Source: Cytophagaceae bacterium
GTDB taxonomy: Bacteria; Bacteroidota; Bacteroidia; Cytophagales; Cytophagaceae
Assembly: GCA_025455005.1 (NCBI GenBank)
Contig: JALONH010000018.1
Coordinates: 1 to 63,723 of the forward strand
Direction of reading: 5' to 3'
DNA length: 63,723 bases
Shown: one piece after another, positions 13,062-35,743 of the stretch
Numbering within the stretch: the stretch's first letter is position 1
Layout of the letters: the number at the start of each line of letters is the position of its first letter
Made by a program: the position numbers and the translations under genes
The notes under the pieces: generated by a model
Databases searched by the model: none
What the model was told of the DNA's origin: nothing
Seen by the model: only the letters and a program-made list of their open reading frames with translations

Positions 13062-15449
13062 CTAACTACTCATCCTCCGGTGTTTCCAATTCGTTAATAC
13101 CACTACAAATACGACTACAAATACCGAACTTACCGGCATCAAGATGGCAGCCACAATCGGTTTTAAAAGTCCTTGCGTAGCAAAGGATAAACCAATTACA
13201 TTGTACAGTAAAGATAAAATTAACGTAGATTTAATTACGCTGATCACATGTTTACTGTATTTTATAAACTCTTGTAATCGGCGTAGTTGTTTTCCTTCTA
13301 ATATGCCATCACTGGCAGGAGTGAAGTAGGCGGTATCATCTGTCACAGCAATACCAACTTGAGCGGCTTTTAAAGCACCGGCATCGTTGAGTCCGTCGCC
13401 TAACATTAATACTCTTTTACCTGCTGCTTTCAACGCCATTATTTTATCTAACTTATCCTGTGGAGTGCACTGGAAATGCATATTTTCTTTCGGTATGTAA
13501 GCAGATAAAAATTCTTTTTCTTTATCGGTATCGCCGGATAACAAATGCACTTCGTATGACTTCGCTAAATTCGCTACCATCTCTAATACTTCCGGTCGGT
13601 AGGAAGGAGCAAAAGAGAAATATCCTTTTAATGTAGTATCAATGCATACATACACACGTGTTTCATTCGAAGGGATATCTTGTGTTAACCAGGCTGCCGA
13701 GCCTATTTGTATACGATGATTCTTTATACGACCTTCGATTCCTTTGCCTTGAATTTCTTCAAAAGATTCTATAGGAAATGTCATCGTTTGACGAAAGTGA
13801 TGCGTGATTTGTTGACTTAATGGATGTGTGGATTGTTGAGTTAACGAAAAGATATATATTTTTTCTTCATCTGTTACGTCTCCTTTCCAAACTAAATCGG
13901 ATGTATGATGATCGGTTAGTGTTCCAGTTTTATCCAATACAATCGTATCTACGGTACTTACTTGTTCTATAGTATCTGCGTTCTTTAAATAGAATCCGGT
14001 TTTACTCATCCATCGTAATCCATTACTTAATCCGAACGGCATGGTCAAAGCCATGGCGCAAGGGCAAGCTATTAATAATACTGAAGTAAAGGGATATAAT
14101 GCTCGTGATGGGTCGATATACCACCAGACAGCTAATGTTGTGATGGCAATTAATAAAGTACCGATGGTAAAGTATTTACTAAAGGTAAGAATAAAGGACG
14201 CTAGATAGGCATTATTATCCTTTTTGAACACGTCATGGTTCCATAACTGTACTAAATAACTATTCGAAACCGACTTGTTCACTAACGCTTCAATGGCTGT
14301 TCCTTTTTGTTTGCCACCCGCATAAATCACATCACCTGTTTTCACACGAACGGGATGCGATTCGCCGGTTACAAAACTATAATCGATTAAGGCATCACCG
14401 GCAGTCAATATACCATCGGCCGGGATGATTTCTTCATTTCGAATCCGTATGATATGTCCGGGTTGAATATCTGTTACAGGTAAGGTAGAGTAGCCTTGTG
14501 CTTCTTTTACCTGAACGGCAACCGGAAAATAAGATAAGTAATCTCTTTCATACGAGAAATGTTGGTACACTCTTTTTTGATACCATTTCCCTATCAATAA
14601 AAAAAATATAAGACCGGTCAACGAATCAAAATACCCCGGTCCGATTTGAAGCAGAACCTCATAGGCACTACGTAAAAAAACAGAACTGATACCAATGGAT
14701 ATAGGAACCTCCAAATTTAATACTCGATGTTTTAAACCGGTAAATGCAGTTATAAAATAATCTTTTGCCGAATAGACAACTACCGGTAGTGCCAACAACA
14801 AATTGATATACCCTAAAAAGTGATAAATTGAACCATCCGCTTTAGGATCAATTCCTAAGTATTCCGGAAAACTCAACAACATGATGTTACCGGAACAAAA
14901 TCCGGCAACTCCTAACTGGTATAATAAGCTATAGTCTTTATTTTCCGGTTTTGTAGAGGATATATTCTCTAAACTAATGTGGGGTGGATATCCCAACGTA
15001 TGCATGAATTCTACAATCCGACGGATAGAAACTTCTTTAGGATGATAGGTGATTTGTATTTCTTTACGTACAAAATGGACCCGTGCATGTTGAACACCCG
15101 ATAGAAGTTTATGTAAATTTTCTAATAAGTATATACAAGAACTACAATGAATAGTTGGAATTTGAAAAACTACATGAATCGAATCGTCGCTTTTAAATTG
15201 AACAATACGGTCGACAATAGCAGCATCGTCTAAATACGCATATTGCTCCGCTACACTCTGTTTAATTTTAATTCCAGGTCGTGTATCGATATCGTAATAG
15301 TTACAAAGATTATTCTGTTCCAGCAGTTCATAAACGGTTTGGCAACCGGTACAACAAAAATGTTTCTTCTCCCATATAATATCCTGTTGAGTACAAGTAT
15401 CACCGCAATGGGCGCAGAGCGTTATTTCTGTTGGGAGTGCCAGCTTCAT
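13062..15449 (-). CDS. ccoI: Copper-translocating P1B-type ATPase for cbb3 oxidase assembly
   Basis: Inner-membrane copper exporter that feeds metal to the cbb3 oxidase (CcoI/FixI type). The N-terminus has the Cys-rich block CAHCGDTCTQ..CCTGC typical of CcoI, then a heavy-metal domain with HCSSC, the membrane metal site CPC (ACPCAMAL), the phosphorylation motif DKTGTLT and the hinge GDGLNDAGAL. Length (795 residues) fits. It is the third gene of an operon with the sensor kinase and the regulator, 3 bases after the latter, and lies opposite the ccoNO cluster it serves. Confidence 0.9.
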   Translation of the reverse strand: MKLALPTEITLCAHCGDTCTQQDIIWEKKHFCCTGCQTVYELLEQNNLCNYYDIDTRPGIKIKQSVAEQYAYLDDAAIVDRIVQFKSDDSIHVVFQIPTIHCSSCIYLLENLHKLLSGVQHARVHFVRKEIQITYHPKEVSIRRIVEFMHTLGYPPHISLENISSTKPENKDYSLLYQLGVAGFCSGNIMLLSFPEYLGIDPKADGSIYHFLGYINLLLALPVVVYSAKDYFITAFTGLKHRVLNLEVPISIGISSVFLRSAYEVLLQIGPGYFDSLTGLIFFLLIGKWYQKRVYQHFSYERDYLSYFPVAVQVKEAQGYSTLPVTDIQPGHIIRIRNEEIIPADGILTAGDALIDYSFVTGESHPVRVKTGDVIYAGGKQKGTAIEALVNKSVSNSYLVQLWNHDVFKKDNNAYLASFILTFSKYFTIGTLLIAITTLAVWWYIDPSRALYPFTSVLLIACPCAMALTMPFGLSNGLRWMSKTGFYLKNADTIEQVSTVDTIVLDKTGTLTDHHTSDLVWKGDVTDEEKIYIFSLTQQSTHPLSQQITHHFRQTMTFPIESFEEIQGKGIEGRIKNHRIQIGSAAWLTQDIPSNETRVYVCIDTTLKGYFSFAPSYRPEVLEMVANLAKSYEVHLLSGDTDKEKEFLSAYIPKENMHFQCTPQDKLDKIMALKAAGKRVLMLGDGLNDAGALKAAQVGIAVTDDTAYFTPASDGILEGKQLRRLQEFIKYSKHVISVIKSTLILSLLYNVIGLSFATQGLLKPIVAAILMPVSSVFVVVFVVVLTNWKHRRMSS

Positions 15450-28730: not shown

Positions 28731-30347
28731 CTATTGTACAACCGTTATGTTTTTCCATTTTTTATTGTTTACCAAAATTACATAATATCCAGGTTGCGTA
28801 ATTTTACCAGAGGAAGTAGACCCATCCCAAAGATATGGCCCCTCCACTTCTAATATTGTATTTCCTGTATTATCTAAAATTTTAACGGACCCTTTAACAT
28901 CAATATAATAAGTATTATAAATGCTATTTAAGTGTAGTATAACATCACAATCGTTAAATTGATTTAATATTATGGAGGTGTCAATGCTACAGCCCTCTGC
29001 ATCTTTTATTCGAATAGTATACTTCCCGGGACGTAAATCAGAAGATACTTTGGTATCCCATATAATAGTATCATAGGGATTTATAATAGAATAAGAAATA
29101 GGGGACACCGCATCTAGTAATTGTACTTGATTTTTTGATAAATGATAGCCTCGTTCACAAGAGACAGAGCCAAGGTCTATTTCCCAAGTTATCAATTCCA
29201 TACATGCCTCAACGTTTAATTTTATAGAAGCATAAACTAGTTTTAATAAGGGTAAAGACGGATGAGACGCTTCCATGAAATAAGTACCGGAATCGCTATA
29301 TTGTATAGTCTCCAAGCGTAATAATGGAGAGTTAGTTTCAATTTTAAATGTAGCATTATGAAAATGCCGGTATAGTATTCCTGTACTGATGTCTACCGCT
29401 GAATAAGTCAAAGTAATAGTATCTAATACTCTTGTGAATTGACTAGATGGATTAACTATAGAAGCTTGAGGGTGATATCTAAAATTAGTCAATCCGGATA
29501 AATAGGTTAAGGGAATTAAATCGTCGATTGTAAGAAAATTATTGTGCACCTCCATTTCTGTCAACTGAGGTTTATTACTCAAATTTGGTAATTCACTTAA
29601 TAAATTATTAAAAGCCCAAATCTTTTTTACGGTAGTTAGATCATTTAATACAGCTAAAGAATGTATTCTGTTGTTAAAACAATACAAAGTATTTAATGTA
29701 CTTGCCTGTTCTAATCCATTTAAATCACTAATTAAATTATTATCACAATGTAATACTTGTAGATTAGATAATTGATTTAAATTAGGTATTACAGAAATTT
29801 GATTGTTACTCATTAAAAAATAATCTAATTGAACTAATGATGATAAATCAGGTAAGGCTGTAAGTCTGTTGTTATTGATTATTAATTGTTGTAATTGAGT
29901 TAGAGTACTAATAGAAGCGGGAAGACTTGTTAAACGATTACTGTGTACATGTAATTGTAATAAACTTTCAAGTCCACTAAAGTCAGGAAGGGAAGATAAG
30001 TTATTACTATTTACGTATAGAAATTTGATGTTGTTTAATGAACTTAAGTTTGGAAGTGAAGTTAAGTTGTTTTGTGAAACATCTAATTTGTAAATAGACT
30101 CAAAATATTCTATTCCGCTTAAATCACTAATATTGGAATTGGTTAATATTAAATCAAAAGTAAAGACCTTGGCAACGGATATATTGAGTTCATCTCCCAA
30201 CATGACCGAAGGATAACTACTTTTTAACTTTTCTCGAAAATTAACATCCGGGATAGAGAATGTTTGTGCGAATAAAGGTAGAGAAAAAAAGATTTCTACC
30301 ATTATTAATAAAACAAAACTCAATAGTATATGTGATATTCTAGACAT
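28731..30347 (-). CDS. Secreted leucine-rich-repeat protein with SprB-like / sorting-type tail
   Basis: Exported surface protein of 538 residues. A signal peptide (1-28) is followed by about nine bacterial leucine-rich repeats (65-290; repeats such as LYVNSNNLSSLPD). Residues 382-538 form a module with cysteines at 382, 397, 453 and 467, a SprB-repeat-like core (LRPGKYTIRIKDAEGC) and a final YLWDGSTSSGKITQPGYY strand pair like CHU_C/FlgD-type tails used in T9SS type B cargo. The same module forms the end of the anti-sigma-like protein encoded just upstream. Its ATG overlaps that gene's TAA by one base, so both are made together. Confidence 0.78.
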   Translation of the reverse strand: MSRISHILLSFVLLIMVEIFFSLPLFAQTFSIPDVNFREKLKSSYPSVMLGDELNISVAKVFTFDLILTNSNISDLSGIEYFESIYKLDVSQNNLTSLPNLSSLNNIKFLYVNSNNLSSLPDFSGLESLLQLHVHSNRLTSLPASISTLTQLQQLIINNNRLTALPDLSSLVQLDYFLMSNNQISVIPNLNQLSNLQVLHCDNNLISDLNGLEQASTLNTLYCFNNRIHSLAVLNDLTTVKKIWAFNNLLSELPNLSNKPQLTEMEVHNNFLTIDDLIPLTYLSGLTNFRYHPQASIVNPSSQFTRVLDTITLTYSAVDISTGILYRHFHNATFKIETNSPLLRLETIQYSDSGTYFMEASHPSLPLLKLVYASIKLNVEACMELITWEIDLGSVSCERGYHLSKNQVQLLDAVSPISYSIINPYDTIIWDTKVSSDLRPGKYTIRIKDAEGCSIDTSIILNQFNDCDVILHLNSIYNTYYIDVKGSVKILDNTGNTILEVEGPYLWDGSTSSGKITQPGYYVILVNNKKWKNITVVQ

Positions 30348-31438
30348 TAATATATTGTAATTTGTCCTTGCTCGACCTGATTTTCATTGTATTTAATGGT
30401 ATAAATATACAATCCCGGAGAGATTATACCACCATTAGATGAAGTCCCATCCCACTCGAAGATAGGATCATTTGAAGATAATGACCAAATCGCAATTCCA
30501 TTAAGATTGTAAATTGTGACCAAATAAGGAGTAGAATATGAAATTTCATACATCCAACGCTCGCCTATTGAAGGGCGTAAAATAAATGAAGTCGTTTTAC
30601 ATGTAACACTTTCAACTTCGAAAGGAATAGTTTTGACACAGTCATGAATATCTTTGACTTGAATTATGTATTGCCCCGGAAACAGATTATCCAAATGTGA
30701 TGTATTCCCTTTTTCATCCTTACATAACAATGAAAATGGCGCTTTACCCCCTTGAATAGAAGATGTAGTAATTTCTATTTTTCCCGTGGGTTTGTTAGTG
30801 CAAGAGGGTGAAACTACATAGGGTACTGACCAAAGTTCGGGATCACAAGTACTACTTACTGGAATACTTTTCAAAGAAGTTATATTTGTATCTTGTTGAA
30901 TAATAACTCTAGTATTCATATTATTCCACTCCATTATAGACTGATTGATTATAGAATCTGTATTGAAAAATAGAGTTGAATTAGAGGACAACGTTCTTAA
31001 GGACTTTGATTTAGATACGTATACTTTTTTATCAGATTCAGGAGAAGTAATATTATCTGTTCGTATACTATTTAAATTTTTCACTGATATAGGAGACATC
31101 GAATTTTTGATTTTATTACCTGAATTTTTGGACTGTATTGTCCAAAAAAGTAAGGATGCAATGATAGCAACTATTAAAATGGAAATAAAAATTCTCTTCA
31201 ACCATATTATTCGATTGTATAGTTTGTCTTGCTCACTGATAAGATAGGCGATTTCATTTTTTTGTTGATGAATACCACCTCTTAATAAATGTAGGTTTAT
31301 TGTTGATTGAAGGCGAACTAAGTTTTGTAAATCCAATGAATTAGTCAATTGTTTTTCAAATTTCTCTCGTTCGGGATGTTTGAGTTGATCCGTCAAGTAG
31401 TCATCTATAGTGGATAATATTTCTAATTCGGGTCTCAT
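30347..31438 (-). CDS. Membrane anti-sigma-like protein with SprB-like / sorting-type periplasmic tail
   Basis: Probable anti-sigma factor by position and topology. Residues 1-80 are cytoplasmic and helical, TM helix 82-102, then a long low-complexity N/S/T/K-rich periplasmic linker (103-197). Residues 198-363 form a module with cysteines 198, 213, 267 and 280, a SprB-repeat-like core (LFPGQYIIQVKDIHDC) and the ending FEWDGTSSNGGIISPGLY. The cysteine spacing matches that of the downstream LRR protein. No zinc HxxxCxxC motif is seen. Its ATG overlaps the stop of the ECF sigma gene (ATGA). Domain reading is direct; the anti-sigma role is inferred. Confidence 0.7.
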   Translation of the reverse strand: MRPELEILSTIDDYLTDQLKHPEREKFEKQLTNSLDLQNLVRLQSTINLHLLRGGIHQQKNEIAYLISEQDKLYNRIIWLKRIFISILIVAIIASLLFWTIQSKNSGNKIKNSMSPISVKNLNSIRTDNITSPESDKKVYVSKSKSLRTLSSNSTLFFNTDSIINQSIMEWNNMNTRVIIQQDTNITSLKSIPVSSTCDPELWSVPYVVSPSCTNKPTGKIEITTSSIQGGKAPFSLLCKDEKGNTSHLDNLFPGQYIIQVKDIHDCVKTIPFEVESVTCKTTSFILRPSIGERWMYEISYSTPYLVTIYNLNGIAIWSLSSNDPIFEWDGTSSNGGIISPGLYIYTIKYNENQVEQGQITIY

Positions 31439-32013
31439 TTTGTTAAAGCATTCAAAACAGATGGATTTGATTGGATAAGCTTCATTAAATACTGTTTACA
31501 GCGATAGTGCACTGTTTTTGCAACATTTTCGCTGCTATAACCCATCCGTAAACTGATTTCTTTTAAACTCATTTTCTCATACATAAACCAAGTGAGTATG
31601 GTTTGACATTTATGATCTAATTGTGAGAAAATGGATTGAAATAGGGTAAAAGTATCTTTCTCAGGAATAGTATTATTATTTGAATCCTCTACCAATAAGG
31701 GGCTATATTCAGATAATTCAACCGTTACTATTTTTTTTCTTTTTCTTTGAATATCTATCCAACTATTTCGAACTACTGTAAATATAAATCCGTCCACATC
31801 GTAGTCTTCATTATATTTTCCTTCTTTAATTATATTATAGAGTTTAATTAATGCGTCTTGAAAACAATCGTCGGCATCTTCATATGATCCACCATTTTTA
31901 ATTATATATTTTCTAATTTTTAATAACGACGATTTATACAACAAAGAAACTACTGTTGAATTATGGTTATTTTGAATGGCTTCTATAATCTTTTTGTCTC
32001 TTTCCGATAACAT
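31435..32013 (-). CDS. ECF-type RNA polymerase sigma factor
   Basis: Extracytoplasmic-function sigma-70 factor of 192 residues. Region 2 (about 25-95) includes YEDADDCFQDALIKLY and DGFIFTVVRNSWIDIQRK, which contact the -10 element; region 4 (about 125-180) has FMYEKMSLKEISLRMGYSSENVAKTVHYRC, the -35 recognition helix-turn-helix. It is first of a three-gene coupled unit with the anti-sigma-like and LRR genes and is divergent from a PorP/SprF-like gene. The 77-base gap between the start codons must hold both promoters. Confidence 0.88.
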   Translation of the reverse strand: MLSERDKKIIEAIQNNHNSTVVSLLYKSSLLKIRKYIIKNGGSYEDADDCFQDALIKLYNIIKEGKYNEDYDVDGFIFTVVRNSWIDIQRKRKKIVTVELSEYSPLLVEDSNNNTIPEKDTFTLFQSIFSQLDHKCQTILTWFMYEKMSLKEISLRMGYSSENVAKTVHYRCKQYLMKLIQSNPSVLNALTK

Positions 32014-32090
32014 TCTATGTCTACTACGTAACTACTTTATAAAAGTAAACACTTGTTTTTGATTTTTATTTTTTATCATTGTCTTTAAAA

Positions 32091-32987
32091 ATGACTATAA
32101 TTTCTTACATATGTAATATTAAAACCCTGTTTGTTTTAACATTGGGGATTTTTTTACATAAAGAAGTACAAAGTCAAATTGCGCTTCCGGTCAACTATGA
32201 ATTTCAGCAATTTTTTGAAGTATATAACTATATGAATCCATCTGTTGTGGATTCTTCAAAAATATTTTCTATACGCTTGCACAATAGAACATCTTTCGGA
32301 TTATTTGAAGGTGTACAACGTAATATTTTAGTAGCTAATAAAATATTTTTTAAAAATAATCGCCGTTTTGCAACTTTAGGTATAGCAGCTACCCGAGCCT
32401 CTGATGGTCCATTTATTCAACGAAATGGTTTGTACATTAGTGGGGCTTGGTTTACAAAATTATCAAGTAGATGGGCTATTTCAGCCGGAATGAAAGTAGG
32501 TAGCTTGAATTATGTTTTCAAACCCAGTCAATTTAGTGTTGGTGGATCTGATTGGGCATGGGATGGAGCAATCGGTCTTAGTCTATATTCTCCTAAAGTA
32601 ATCGTTGGTTTAAGTATACAACAAATATTGCCTTCAACACTTCGACCATTAGATTATATCGTTTTTTTAAATCCTTATTGGAATATATTTTATAAAGGTA
32701 TACTATATCAAAAAGGGGTATGGTTAGGCGAAATGAACGCTTTGATGAGTTGGTCCACTCAGACCTCGGTTACTTTATCTTTTGCACCTATTGTAACTTG
32801 GAATCATTTAGTTAAATCAGGTTTAATTTATCAGTATGCCAAGGGCCTATCTATTTTTATTGGTATACAATCCACATTAGGACAACACTTACGTTGGTCA
32901 ATTGGTGCTTCTTTTTTATTGTATTCAACATCAAGTAGCAGGTTTACAGATGGAGTATTGGAATTTTCTGGATTAATTCATCCATAA
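32091..32987 (+). CDS. PorP/SprF-family type IX secretion membrane protein
   Basis: Outer-membrane beta-barrel-type protein, 298 residues. A signal peptide (about 1-25, ending VQSQ) is followed by the family pattern: YNYMNPSVVDSSKIFSIRLHNR near the start, then DGPFIQRNGLYISGAWFTKLS, and strands such as VGLSIQQILP. PorP/SprF proteins assist export or anchoring of particular T9SS cargo, mainly type B tails. I chose the ATG at 32091 over a TTG at 32079. It is divergent from the ECF sigma operon and 75 bases upstream of the GH74 gene. Confidence 0.75.
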   Translation: MTIISYICNIKTLFVLTLGIFLHKEVQSQIALPVNYEFQQFFEVYNYMNPSVVDSSKIFSIRLHNRTSFGLFEGVQRNILVANKIFFKNNRRFATLGIAATRASDGPFIQRNGLYISGAWFTKLSSRWAISAGMKVGSLNYVFKPSQFSVGGSDWAWDGAIGLSLYSPKVIVGLSIQQILPSTLRPLDYIVFLNPYWNIFYKGILYQKGVWLGEMNALMSWSTQTSVTLSFAPIVTWNHLVKSGLIYQYAKGLSIFIGIQSTLGQHLRWSIGASFLLYSTSSSRFTDGVLEFSGLIHP

Positions 32988-33061
32988 TACTATTTTACTG
33001 TTTACTTTTTTACAAAATAGCGTAGTAGGAATGAACGAACACCATATTATTCTTACAGCAG

Positions 33062-35743
33062 ATGTTACAGAAAATTAAAAAATCCTATTTTATTTTATTT
33101 TTTATCTTGATAATCAGTTTGATAACCCAAGCGCAAACATACCAGTGGTCCAATGTAGAAATTGTTGCGGGTGGATTTGTGACCGGTATTATTTATCATC
33201 CTTCTGCTCCGGGTGTTGCATATATGCGGACTGATATGGGAGGAGCTTATAGATTTAATGCAGCAGCTCAAGCATGGGAACCAATTACAGATCATTTTAG
33301 CAATGTAGATTGGAATATGCTTGGAATTGAGAGTATGGCAATAGATCCAACTAATAGCAATAGAGTATATATGGCTTGTGGAACCTATGCTTACAATAAC
33401 TGGGCAGGTAATGCGTCCTTTTTTCGTTCATCCGATAGAGGCTCAACATGGGTAAGAACTAATTTACCCTTTAAGTTAGGAGCTAATGAACCGGGGAGAG
33501 GTATGGGGGAACGTTTACAAGTAGATCCTAATTCCCCTAATATTTTGTATTTAGGTACTAGACAAAATGGTCTATGGAGAAGCCTGGATTTTGGAGCTAC
33601 ATGGAATCAAATTACAAGTTTTCCAACAGTTAGTACGCCATCTGATGTAGGGTTACCTATTGTGATCATAGATCCGTCCAGTGGTTCATCAGGAAATCCA
33701 AGTCAAACTATTTATGTAACAATTGCTACGGCAACAGCAGCTAATTTTTATAGAAGTATGAATGGAGGTTTAACTTGGCAAAGCATAACAGGTGGACCTA
33801 CAGGAATGATGCCTTATAGAGCAGTGTTAGTAAACAATTCATTAATGTATTTAACCTATTCTAATGCTCCAGGTCCTAATGGTATTAGCACAGGAGCAGT
33901 AGTTCGATTTAATCCTCAAACTTTGCAGTGGACTACTCTTTTAACTCCTAATGGACAAGGTGGTTTTGCCGGTCTTGCAGTAGACCCAACCAACTCTAAT
34001 ATAATTATGGCTGCAACCATATGTAGATGGTGGCCAAATGATGAAATTTATAGAAGTACCAACGGAGGTGCCACATGGGTAACTGTTGGTACAGGTTCAA
34101 ATATAAGTCGAAATTCTGCTGTTTCCCCTTATATACGTTTTGGAGCAGCTAATGACAATGGTATTCGTACTGGTAATTGGGTTAGTGCTTTAGCGTTTGA
34201 CCCTAGTAATACTAATAAAGTAATATATGCAACTGGTGCTACTGTTTGGGGTTCTGATAATATAAAAAACTCCGATACGGGTGGACAAGTCATCTGGGGG
34301 ATAAAAGGTAAAGGGGTAGAGCAGACCGCTGTATTGGACCTTAAAAGTCCACCCTCCGGACCTTATTTATTAAGTGGCTTAGGTGATATCTGCGGTTTTA
34401 TACATAATGATGTAAAAGTATCACCACCTCAAGGTGTAATTGATCCCGGTTATAAAAATGGAGAATCGGTTGATTATGCAGAGTTAAACCCGTCATATAT
34501 GGCTATTATTGGTCATGATTACACGCCAAATTATTTTGGAAGTTATTCAACAAACTCGGGCGCAACTTGGACAAGATTCTCTAGTATTCCTCCTGGAGCA
34601 CAAGATGGAATGATTAGTTGTAATGCGAATGGTAGTACATTGATTTGGGCACCTCGAAATATGACACCTTATCGCTCTGTTAATAACGGAACTACTTGGA
34701 CAGCAACGAATGGAATAGGTGGTACAGCATCTTTGGTGGCTGATAAAGTTAATCCGCTAAAGTTTTATGCTATTCGAAATAATACTTTATATCGAAGTGT
34801 AGATGGAGGAATGAATTTCACTACTGCTGCTACAAGTGGGTTTTCAGGTACTAAATTAAAAACGACCCCTGGTTTTGAAAATCATATTTGGGTACCAGCA
34901 TCTAATGGAATGTATCGATCAATTGATGGGGGGATATCCTTTACTAGAGTAAATAATGTTCAAAACACAAGTGCTTTAGGTTTTGGTAAAAATGCTACAG
35001 GGCAAACGTATCCTGCTATATATGCAATAGGTACAATAAATAATATCTATGGGATTCATCGTTCTGATGATGCTGGGGTTACGTGGGTTCGAATTAATGA
35101 TGACATGCATCAATATGGAGGAATTGGACAATCTATAACTGGAGATTCTAGAGTATACGGCAGAGTATATGTCGCAACAAATGGTAGGGGAATTGTGTTA
35201 GGAGAATTACCGCCCACTCTACCTGTTGATGTTTTAGAATTTTCAATAAAAAAAGGTAATAATGACACATATTTTCAATGGACGGTGTTAAATGAATCCG
35301 GAATTACAACCTATTATCTAGATTATATTGAAAACCTTTCAACTGGAATATGGAAATCAATCGATACTGTTTTGGCTCAACCCAATAATGGGGAAATAAG
35401 AAACTATTATAGTAGTTCGAAAGATTTCTGGCCTTCGGGTTATTATCGATTACGTACGAATGAAAATGAAGTTAAAGGTCAGCTGTTTTGGAATGGAAAC
35501 GTTTCTTTTAAAAATCTTTTTATTTATCCAAATCCTAGTTATACAGATCAATCCATTAAACTTCTTACAGAACATGAAATCGATCCTTTACCTATCGAAA
35601 TATATACTCTTACAGGAAAGATAGTTTATAAAGGTCTATACCATCCTAATGATGAGTTGGATCTTAAATTACCAGCCGGAATGTATTGTATTCGAATTCT
35701 ATCAAAAAATGACGTTTTGGTAGTTCAATGGATTGTTCAATAA
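33062..35743 (+). CDS. GH74-family xyloglucanase-like protein with T9SS sorting domain
   Basis: Secreted glycoside hydrolase built of two seven-bladed propellers. Family GH74 cleaves xyloglucan. After a signal peptide (1-24), Asp58 in MRTDMGGAY is the expected first catalytic residue; LGDICGF in the second half carries the second. Blade motifs such as FRSSDRGSTW, WRSLDFGATW and YRSTNGGATW recur through the chain. The last 75 residues (IYPNPSYTDQS to VVQWIVQ) are a type A T9SS sorting domain. No SusC/SusD or other xyloglucan gene is nearby. A large terminator follows. Confidence 0.88.
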   Translation: MLQKIKKSYFILFFILIISLITQAQTYQWSNVEIVAGGFVTGIIYHPSAPGVAYMRTDMGGAYRFNAAAQAWEPITDHFSNVDWNMLGIESMAIDPTNSNRVYMACGTYAYNNWAGNASFFRSSDRGSTWVRTNLPFKLGANEPGRGMGERLQVDPNSPNILYLGTRQNGLWRSLDFGATWNQITSFPTVSTPSDVGLPIVIIDPSSGSSGNPSQTIYVTIATATAANFYRSMNGGLTWQSITGGPTGMMPYRAVLVNNSLMYLTYSNAPGPNGISTGAVVRFNPQTLQWTTLLTPNGQGGFAGLAVDPTNSNIIMAATICRWWPNDEIYRSTNGGATWVTVGTGSNISRNSAVSPYIRFGAANDNGIRTGNWVSALAFDPSNTNKVIYATGATVWGSDNIKNSDTGGQVIWGIKGKGVEQTAVLDLKSPPSGPYLLSGLGDICGFIHNDVKVSPPQGVIDPGYKNGESVDYAELNPSYMAIIGHDYTPNYFGSYSTNSGATWTRFSSIPPGAQDGMISCNANGSTLIWAPRNMTPYRSVNNGTTWTATNGIGGTASLVADKVNPLKFYAIRNNTLYRSVDGGMNFTTAATSGFSGTKLKTTPGFENHIWVPASNGMYRSIDGGISFTRVNNVQNTSALGFGKNATGQTYPAIYAIGTINNIYGIHRSDDAGVTWVRINDDMHQYGGIGQSITGDSRVYGRVYVATNGRGIVLGELPPTLPVDVLEFSIKKGNNDTYFQWTVLNESGITTYYLDYIENLSTGIWKSIDTVLAQPNNGEIRNYYSSSKDFWPSGYYRLRTNENEVKGQLFWNGNVSFKNLFIYPNPSYTDQSIKLLTEHEIDPLPIEIYTLTGKIVYKGLYHPNDELDLKLPAGMYCIRILSKNDVLVVQWIVQ

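Follow-up and report, generated by a model that had tools for sequence, protein, structure and literature searches.

A recurrent sigma/anti-sigma cassette adjoining a PorP/SprF gene, with a T9SS-type C-terminal domain on the anti-sigma-like protein, in a Cytophagaceae bacterium

Analysis of a stretch of 63,723 nucleotides from a Cytophagaceae bacterium (assembly GCA_025455005.1, contig JALONH010000018.1; the whole stretch is referred to here as the window, and is contig C28 of a genome of 2.94 Mb) was centred on a group of genes for an extracytoplasmic function (ECF) sigma factor, a membrane anti-sigma-like protein and a leucine-rich repeat (LRR) protein, with a divergent gene of the PorP/SprF family beside them. 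The anti-sigma-like protein ends in a domain resembling the type B C-terminal domain (CTD) of proteins secreted by the type IX secretion system (T9SS), and the group was found to recur as a cassette in other genomes. The features of the locus are listed below with the evidence for each in brackets (GH, glycoside hydrolase; pLDDT, predicted local distance difference test).

28731 to 30347, minus strand: LRR protein of 538 amino acids with a signal-like N-terminus, proposed surface sensor (LRR_4, 4.3e-20)
28734 to 29204, minus strand: SprB-like and CTD tail of the LRR protein, residues 382-538 (hhalign against the anti-sigma tail, E 1.7e-22)
30347 to 31438, minus strand: membrane anti-sigma-like protein of 363 amino acids with a type B-like T9SS CTD (CHU_C, 27.5 bits, cut-off 27)
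30350 to 30586, minus strand: T9SS CTD-like domain, anti-sigma residues 285-363 (VIA-align to T9SS CTDs)
30587 to 30847, minus strand: SprB-like cysteine domain, anti-sigma residues 198-284 (SprB, 13.2 bits, under the cut-off of 28)
30848 to 31135, minus strand: disordered linker, anti-sigma residues 102-197, presumed periplasmic (low pLDDT; 96 residues)
31136 to 31192, minus strand: predicted transmembrane helix, anti-sigma residues 83-101 (hydropathy maximum from residue 83, score 2.79)
31435 to 32013, minus strand: ECF sigma factor of 192 amino acids (TIGR02937, 3e-20; Sigma70_r2, 1.8e-8)
32022 to 32050, minus strand: predicted sigma-dependent promoter of the sigma operon, GTTTAC-N17-GTAGTA (pattern search)
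32079 to 32987, plus strand: PorP/SprF-family outer membrane protein (PF11751, 79 bits, cut-off 22.3; 5.8e-22)
33000 to 33027, plus strand: matching predicted promoter of the GH74-like gene, GTTTAC-N16-GTAGTA (pattern search)
33062 to 35743, plus strand: GH74-like/BNR glycoside hydrolase with a type A T9SS CTD, proposed target (Sortilin-Vps10, 3.3e-17; Por_Secre_tail, 8.2e-8)

The gene coordinates, the overlaps of 4 bases between the sigma and anti-sigma genes and of 1 base between the anti-sigma and LRR genes, and the divergent orientation of the PorP/SprF-like gene were borne out as given in the original prediction, which a model had made from the sequence alone. The motifs that it quoted from the two protein tails were likewise found in the sequence, as were the cysteine spacings of 15-54-13 in the anti-sigma tail (C198, C213, C267 and C280, with a fifth cysteine, C239, in between) and 15-56-14 in the LRR protein tail. 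On the DNA, ATG at 32091 is a likelier start of the PorP/SprF gene than TTG at 32079, and its product is a divergent member of the family, scoring 41.2 bits with TIGR03519 (under the cut-off of 90.55). The GH74-like protein scored 107.4 bits with the F510_1955 glycosylhydrolase model, under the cut-off of 175. Among the five window proteins covered by the scan, no match to SusC or SusD was identified, nor was a TonB-dependent transducer with a signalling domain; in the cassette, PorP stands in place of the TonB transducer.

Beyond what the original prediction described, two further complete cassettes (ECF sigma, CTD-tailed anti-sigma and LRR protein with divergent PorP/SprF) were identified in the same genome, on contigs C4 (locus L016) and C19 (locus L017), and a predicted promoter common to the sigma operon and the GH74-like gene was recognized. 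Each of the three cassettes adjoins, beyond PorP, a different secreted plant-wall enzyme, namely the GH74-like protein on C28, a rhamnogalacturonan (RG) lyase with a pectate lyase on C4 and a weakly GH30-like protein on C19.

Searching of 79 genomes with the three anti-sigmas gave many full-length matches, from which 60 regions were taken; with the window, L016 and L017 these made up 63 stretches. In these, 66 sigma genes were counted (E below 1e-50 and more than 160 amino acids), and all 66 were found beside an anti-sigma-sized gene, as follows from the selection of the regions by anti-sigma. Not subject to that selection were a third gene directly after the anti-sigma gene (56/66) and a divergent PorP within 600 bases (60/66), both counted by script. 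Inspection of the other six by eye showed a divergent PorP in L072 whose long open reading frame (ORF) overlaps the sigma gene, a PorP 2.9 kb away in L094, one cassette cut by the locus edge in L060, and PorP on the same strand just upstream in the second cassettes of L060, L061 and L068. Where the third gene does not adjoin, a protein matching the LRR or tail profile mostly lies beyond PorP (none was seen in L094). In a scan of ten unusual sensors for named domains, LRR was matched in L045, L059, L096 and, weakly, L049, only an immunoglobulin-like (Ig) domain in L075, and Laminin_G_3 weakly and under cut-off in L091 and L061, with no named head domain in L069, L081 and L095. A CTD was scored over cut-off in five of the ten (four CHU_C, one type A) and as a weak CHU_C in four more, with none in L069. 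The cassette is almost certainly a functional unit.

An order-wide survey identified anti-sigmas covering at least 300 of 368 positions in at least 22 of 390 genomes, the family of the window supplying 15 of those 19 that were listed; five candidates were scored per genome, by which some anti-sigmas could have been missed. Across the phylum (395 genomes), anti-sigmas at E 1e-22 were found solely in the window genome. Hosts named for the tailed loci include Cytophaga aurantiaca, Sporocytophaga, Chryseosolibacter, Cyclobacteriaceae and a Vicingaceae metagenome-assembled genome (MAG), while the genome G012, which we take to be Cytophaga hutchinsonii, holds five full-length anti-sigma copies. At L038:10878-11748 and L074:5169-6043 the cassette PorP is spread over two ORFs, through errors of assembly or through decay.

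The AlphaFold2 model of the anti-sigma-like protein (30 sequences; mean pLDDT 76, predicted template modelling score 0.36) has helices at residues 3-102, a linker at 112-193 that is nearly all below 50 pLDDT, and two beta domains mostly above 90. Both hydropathy and the model place the hydrophobic helix at residue 83, behind a helical part, a position unlike that of a cleavable N-terminal signal peptide. Hydropathy exceeds 1.6 in 51 of the 66 anti-sigmas and lies at 1.29-1.55 in the remaining 15; the linker measures 89-132 residues in 65/66, the exception being L066, where the measurement is upset by a cysteine close to the helix. Comparison of residues 285-363 using VIA-align gave the CTDs of PorU (Z 9.6, 1.9 A over 75), mirolase (Z 9.2, 1.4 A over 68) and PorZ (Z 9.0, 2.5 A over 80), three T9SS CTDs among a top five completed by two unrelated MalQ rows at Z 9.2-9.3, and this supports a CTD fold, not a function, for the modelled C-terminus. 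The type of CTD is blurred, the scores and cut-offs in bits being 27.5 and 27 for CHU_C, 14.1 and 35 for TIGR04131, and 25.6 and 23 for the type A model TIGR04183. CHU_C was matched by 26 of 30 aligned anti-sigma members and SprB by 9 of 30, both at E 0.01, and the CTD lies at or near the C-terminus in all 66. Searched against solved structures, the anti-sigma profile hit the C-terminal end of the grappling hook protein of Aureispira (1.2e-27), with weak matches to PorZ and FlgD; a Foldseek search of the PDB returned no relative of the whole anti-sigma among the 50 matches listed.

Of the 66 anti-sigmas, 5 have just two cysteines after the transmembrane helix, and the variants L178-L180 and L185 (PorP present) and L181 (PorP absent) retain the CTD without the cysteine domain. 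Because the CTD persists where the cysteines or their domain are missing, the cysteine pattern is not essential and was rejected as the key feature, the CTD being the constant part. The variant cassette at L178:4986-9226, also seen at L179 and L180, lies on one strand and consists of sigma, a CTD-only anti-sigma of about 286 amino acids, a sensor of about 600 amino acids and PorP.

The two tails of the window cassette had been described as the same kind of module, and that they are related and not alike by chance was supported by BLASTP of the anti-sigma against the LRR protein (E 2e-4) and by hhalign of the tail alignments (30 and 18 sequences; probability 99.5, E 1.7e-22, 143 columns). Each tail sub-domain matched its own counterpart (3.8e-16 and 8.6e-12), the best of the other five pairings reaching a probability of 60%. 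In a control, the two CTDs matched ordinary type B CTDs at 1.5e-13 and 8.1e-12 and each other at 8.6e-12, indicating that the anti-sigma CTDs are no closer to the sensor CTDs than to ordinary type B CTDs. An unrooted tree separated 55 sensor CTDs from 66 anti-sigma CTDs plus 7 general CTDs (split support 0.958), the general set being a thin control, since 7 of 30 fetched loci passed the filter. By these comparisons the tails belong to the same superfamily as two classes that parted long ago; a recent duplication of the tail between the anti-sigma and LRR genes was rejected by this tree.

The LRR protein of the window was modelled at a mean pLDDT of 85.7 with a signal-like N-terminal helix, an LRR arc and a beta-rich C-terminal part; sequence and model agree on a hydrophobic helix at residues 3-26 before the LRR. 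Internalins and designed LRR proteins ranked first in Foldseek. A CTD is assigned to its tail on the strength of the profile-profile alignment and of its homologues, CHU_C and TIGR04131 each being matched by 12 of the 18 aligned members (E 0.01).

The association of the anti-sigma tail with PorP was examined independently of the tail by scanning the named genomes with the sigma alignment and taking the best 80 of 480 relatives, some of which are the same places as in the anti-sigma search. Three loci that could not be assigned (L128, L135 and L162) were dropped, leaving 77 assessable loci. A PorP gene was found within 3.5 kb in 27 of the 28 loci with a tailed anti-sigma versus none of the 49 without a tail (Fisher 6e-20, a value to be read with the rows not being independent, kinship being uncorrected and the 3.5-kb limit having been set after the data were seen); one untailed locus has a weak PorP 5.3 kb away. 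In agreement with the original prediction, a T9SS-type tail is fused to the anti-sigma-like protein, and it occurs together with a PorP/SprF gene. In a PorP tree, the cassette PorPs (57/57) lie apart from ten other genome PorPs with five further PorPs inside the group, and monophyly of the cassette PorPs is not claimed, as its support was just 0.15.

The same locus could be an ordinary Fec-like cassette, in which the CTD would merely be a periplasmic Ig-like spacer or dimerisation domain, PorP would serve the LRR protein alone and the linkage of tail and PorP would be inherited hitch-hiking. Ig-like folds are common, unrelated beta sandwiches scored close to the T9SS CTDs in VIA-align, the anti-sigma CTDs are not nearest to the sensor CTDs, and co-variation with PorP is weak. 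Set against this are the co-occurrence of tail and PorP and the survival of the CTD in L178-L180 and L185, where the cysteine domain is lost and PorP is still present, and we consider this explanation unlikely.

Type B CTDs typically carry a PNGDG-type motif at their start. Using the same expression, this motif was found in none of the 66 anti-sigmas (one cut at the locus edge) versus 41 of the 56 third genes (one cut; a slightly narrower expression gave 40), and in the anti-sigma family consensus FNPxxGExWxIP replaces the stretch. Because the motif is missing in all 66, export of the anti-sigma is doubtful. This bears on a two-membrane receptor, in which the anti-sigma CTD would be threaded through the T9SS to rest on PorP at the cell exterior, the linker would span the periplasm and the anti-sigma would sense the surface directly, as RsgI does in one-membrane bacteria. 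The T9SS CTD fold seen with VIA-align and the long disordered linker would suit such a receptor, type B CTDs being known as export signals. However, a polypeptide still anchored in the inner membrane would block the translocon, the PNGDG-type motif is absent, and each of five conserved type B motifs is required for secretion of an SprB-CTD reporter (PMC12618676, the available part of which does not spell out the motifs); such a receptor thus seems improbable. If the PNGDG stretch is among those five motifs, the tail of the anti-sigma may bind to PorP and yet not be exported.

Upstream of the sigma gene, the pattern GTT(T)AC-N15..19-GTA was found in 29 of 57 intergenic regions, compared with 0.5 in shuffles, and the spacing count peaks at 17 (29). 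Towards PorP the pattern occurred in 2 of the 57, and a promoter on that side is not claimed. When gene starts were allowed to be misplaced, the promoter was identified at a spacing of 16-18 for 36 of the 66 sigma genes. Among genes outside the cassettes, it stands ahead of 13 of the 47 that have a type A-like CTD versus 9 of 475 others, in a test that left out genes matching the sigma, PorP, anti-sigma or LRR profiles, that thereby also lost three motif-bearing enzyme genes of L051 and L057 (restored for the comparison of -35 forms), and that leans slightly toward its result through a type A profile for which 12 genes from these loci, roughly half bearing the motif, were used. There are 25 sites not belonging to sigma genes, of which 7 have no recognised sigma promoter to be compared with. 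In the other 18, the -35 form (GTTAC or GTTTAC) is that of the nearest sigma gene without exception (Fisher 5e-5; likely orthologues among L038, L039, L041 and L044 and among L060, L061, L068 and L079 bring the independent number to about half). One of the 18, in L055, precedes a sodium/proton exchanger and not an enzyme. L060 and L061 have two cassettes each, with spacers of 17 and 18, and every target follows its own cassette.

Within the 2.94 Mb of the window genome, the C28 form of the promoter, GTTTACTTT-N12..14-CGTAGTA, has two sites, those of the sigma and GH74-like genes, and a reversed control gave none. The C19 form has three sites, all in the cassette (reversed control 0), and the C4 form, the weakest, has three, of which two are in the cassette (reversed control 1); all three forms were chosen post hoc with the sites already seen. 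The genes around the stray C4-type site, C37:30711, show no sign of a secreted enzyme. The RG lyase of C4 was not counted as a target, as the -35 part is present and GTA is missing.

Among 20 neighbouring genes picked for annotation, 10 encode polysaccharide-active proteins (two GH9, two GH10, a GH43, the GH74-like protein, two pectate lyases, an RG lyase and a GH30-like protein under cut-off), the rest being a histidine kinase, a fatty acid desaturase, TonB receptors, an exchanger and unnamed secreted proteins. A further 8 genes picked for the motif include 6 enzymes (a pectate lyase, two RG lyases, a pectinesterase, a GH10 and a GH30). The link between cassette and enzyme is frequent, not universal, and control of the enzyme genes by the promoter is highly likely. 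A 1934-amino-acid protein with a canonical type B CTD at L017:8238-14042 has the C19 cassette promoter and is directly followed by a PorP gene (14053-15048), and is possibly a second secreted target. At L073:12364-14736 and L090:10792-13197, a gene for a TonB-dependent receptor lies beyond PorP and may add an uptake step.

The identity of these predicted targets bears on the mechanism first put forward for the locus, in which the LRR cargo and the anti-sigma tail would compete for PorP, so that transcription would follow the state of secretion and not an external ligand. Each cassette does hold two CTDs and one PorP, the third gene mostly lies directly after the anti-sigma gene, and PorP/SprF proteins are shuttles for type B cargo, the pairs being mostly cognate with some crosstalk in the available part of the study by Paillat and colleagues (PMC12618676). 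One PorP facing the CTDs of both the LRR protein and the anti-sigma is accordingly a fair reading of the shared partner that had been suggested. However, the predicted targets are plant-polysaccharide enzymes that differ per cassette, many with type A CTDs and under the promoter form of their own cassette, and not secretion genes; the sensor heads vary, and the PNGDG-type motif is absent from the anti-sigma CTD. Because the predicted targets are enzymes, the sensing of export state is ranked under the sensing of substrate, and we give it little credence.

Building on what the sequence comparisons establish, namely the conserved cassette, the anti-sigma CTD, its link to PorP, the old split of CTD classes and the promoter code, we propose that the cassette signals from the surface across the envelope as a counterpart, built on PorP, of Fec-type systems, sensing polysaccharide and inducing the matching enzymes (probability roughly 0.55). 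The LRR protein would be secreted by the T9SS and kept on the surface by the cognate PorP/SprF barrel via its type B CTD, while the anti-sigma would hold the ECF sigma factor at the inner membrane. The disordered linker of about 100 residues could allow the anti-sigma CTD to extend to that same outer-membrane PorP, on which this CTD probably docks. Contact of the LRR head, or of a different head in sister cassettes, with its polysaccharide would alter the PorP/CTD assembly; that a ligand on the head triggers release in this way is given about even odds. The anti-sigma would then be undocked and probably cut by regulated proteolysis, freeing the sigma factor, by analogy with Fec and Fox. Free sigma is predicted to transcribe its own operon and the neighbouring T9SS enzyme genes from the computed GTT(T)AC-N16..18-GTA promoters. 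That a single chain spans both membranes, with its CTD at the outer surface or in the PorP barrel and its N-terminus holding sigma in the cytoplasm, and so relays contact with polysaccharide to RNA polymerase, each polysaccharide having its own receptor, promoter code and set of enzymes, appears unlikely.

Several results weigh against this proposal. The tailed exception L107, from a thermophile Cytophagales MAG and on the same contig as L181, has no PorP in the stretch covered, and in a mirror-tree comparison of 50 cassettes the co-variation of PorP with the anti-sigma CTD was weak (partial r 0.30; the anti-sigma N part gave 0.25 and the sensor CTD 0.41). Export of the window LRR protein is uncertain because it matches no CTD model at E up to 1 in either profile library (FlgD_ig reaching 0.15 at most) and has no PNGDG motif. 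Named anti-sigma models matched 2 of 30 anti-sigmas, and those weakly, and for the anti-sigma N-terminal part the solved-structure search gave no relevant relative. With regard to the promoter, 30 of the 66 sigma upstreams have no match, PorP genes carry it in 2 of 59 cases and may be otherwise controlled, and the spacer is the same in 15 of the 18 comparable sites, the window pair itself differing (17 versus 16). Furthermore, several cassettes have unrelated neighbours. The CTD-only anti-sigma without a PorP match at L107/L181 could show whether another partner serves.

In the Fox system, the signalling domain of an outer-membrane barrel binds the anti-sigma when no signal is present and shields it from proteolysis (available part of PMC11637429). 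The cassette resembles Fec and Fox in the ECF sigma gene adjoining that of an inner-membrane anti-sigma with a long part past the membrane, and in the outer-membrane barrel gene alongside. It differs from them in having PorP/SprF instead of a TonB transducer, a T9SS CTD instead of the FecR C-terminal domain, and a separate sensor protein. PorP is described as anchoring type B CTD proteins, with cognate PorP/SprF pairing, in the accessible text of PMC9143113, and, as in SprB/SprF and PG1035/PorP, a gene for a CHU_C-type CTD adjoins one of the PorP/SprF family; what differs in the cassette is a second CTD, on the anti-sigma, behind a transmembrane helix and without the PNGDG-type motif.

The original prediction also drew on the Porphyromonas PorA-PorXY-SigP pathway, in which an ECF sigma factor works downstream of a CTD protein and the targets are T9SS genes (PMC7712824, in the portion available, which mentions no CTD-bearing anti-sigma). 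A CTD protein upstream of an ECF sigma factor is common to both, but the analogy is weak: the signal is relayed there by a two-component system, whereas the cassette sigma presumably answers to its own membrane anti-sigma. That the arrangement is without prior description was in keeping with the open literature, in which no account of a CTD-bearing anti-sigma or of this cassette was found among titles and the starts of abstracts, although other papers could hold one; nor is a CTD-bearing anti-sigma mentioned in the available parts of PMC10202324, PMC9723704, PMC6247017 and PMC10992098.

How Cytophaga and Sporocytophaga, both of which digest cellulose and pectin by contact, sense solid polysaccharide is poorly understood. 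The cassette provides a candidate sensor per polysaccharide and a promoter rule from which the targets can be predicted, and its occurrence in G012, presumably C. hutchinsonii, would make it testable in a bacterium with genetics. If docking is true, receptors bearing T9SS secretion tags would have a route to pass information inward, and PorP/SprF proteins would gain a signalling role besides the anchoring of cargo. The known sigma factor sigma-cel1 we take, from its rough position, to be CHU_3097, which would put it outside the five cassettes of G012. Wang et al. (2019) are said to have described an ECF sigma factor for cellulose use in C. hutchinsonii. Their ECF sigma work is cited in the available parts of PMC12016534 and PMC10766802, the former dealing with ECF-sigma control of cellulose use (sigma-cel1 and chu_1276-1280). 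Control of cellulose use by an ECF sigma factor in a related bacterium is a likeness to the present system, which differs from polysaccharide utilisation loci in having the CTD/PorP cassette instead, SusC and SusD not being among the five window proteins. In Sporocytophaga, the expression of several PorP/SprF genes changes during growth on cellulose (available part of PMC10992098), which is consistent with the proposed mechanism, not proof of it.

Near related sigma genes with an untailed anti-sigma, long proteins that match the anti-sigma profile in its SprB-like part were also identified, at L139:12447-17117, L159:5677-8211 and L169:11706-18053.

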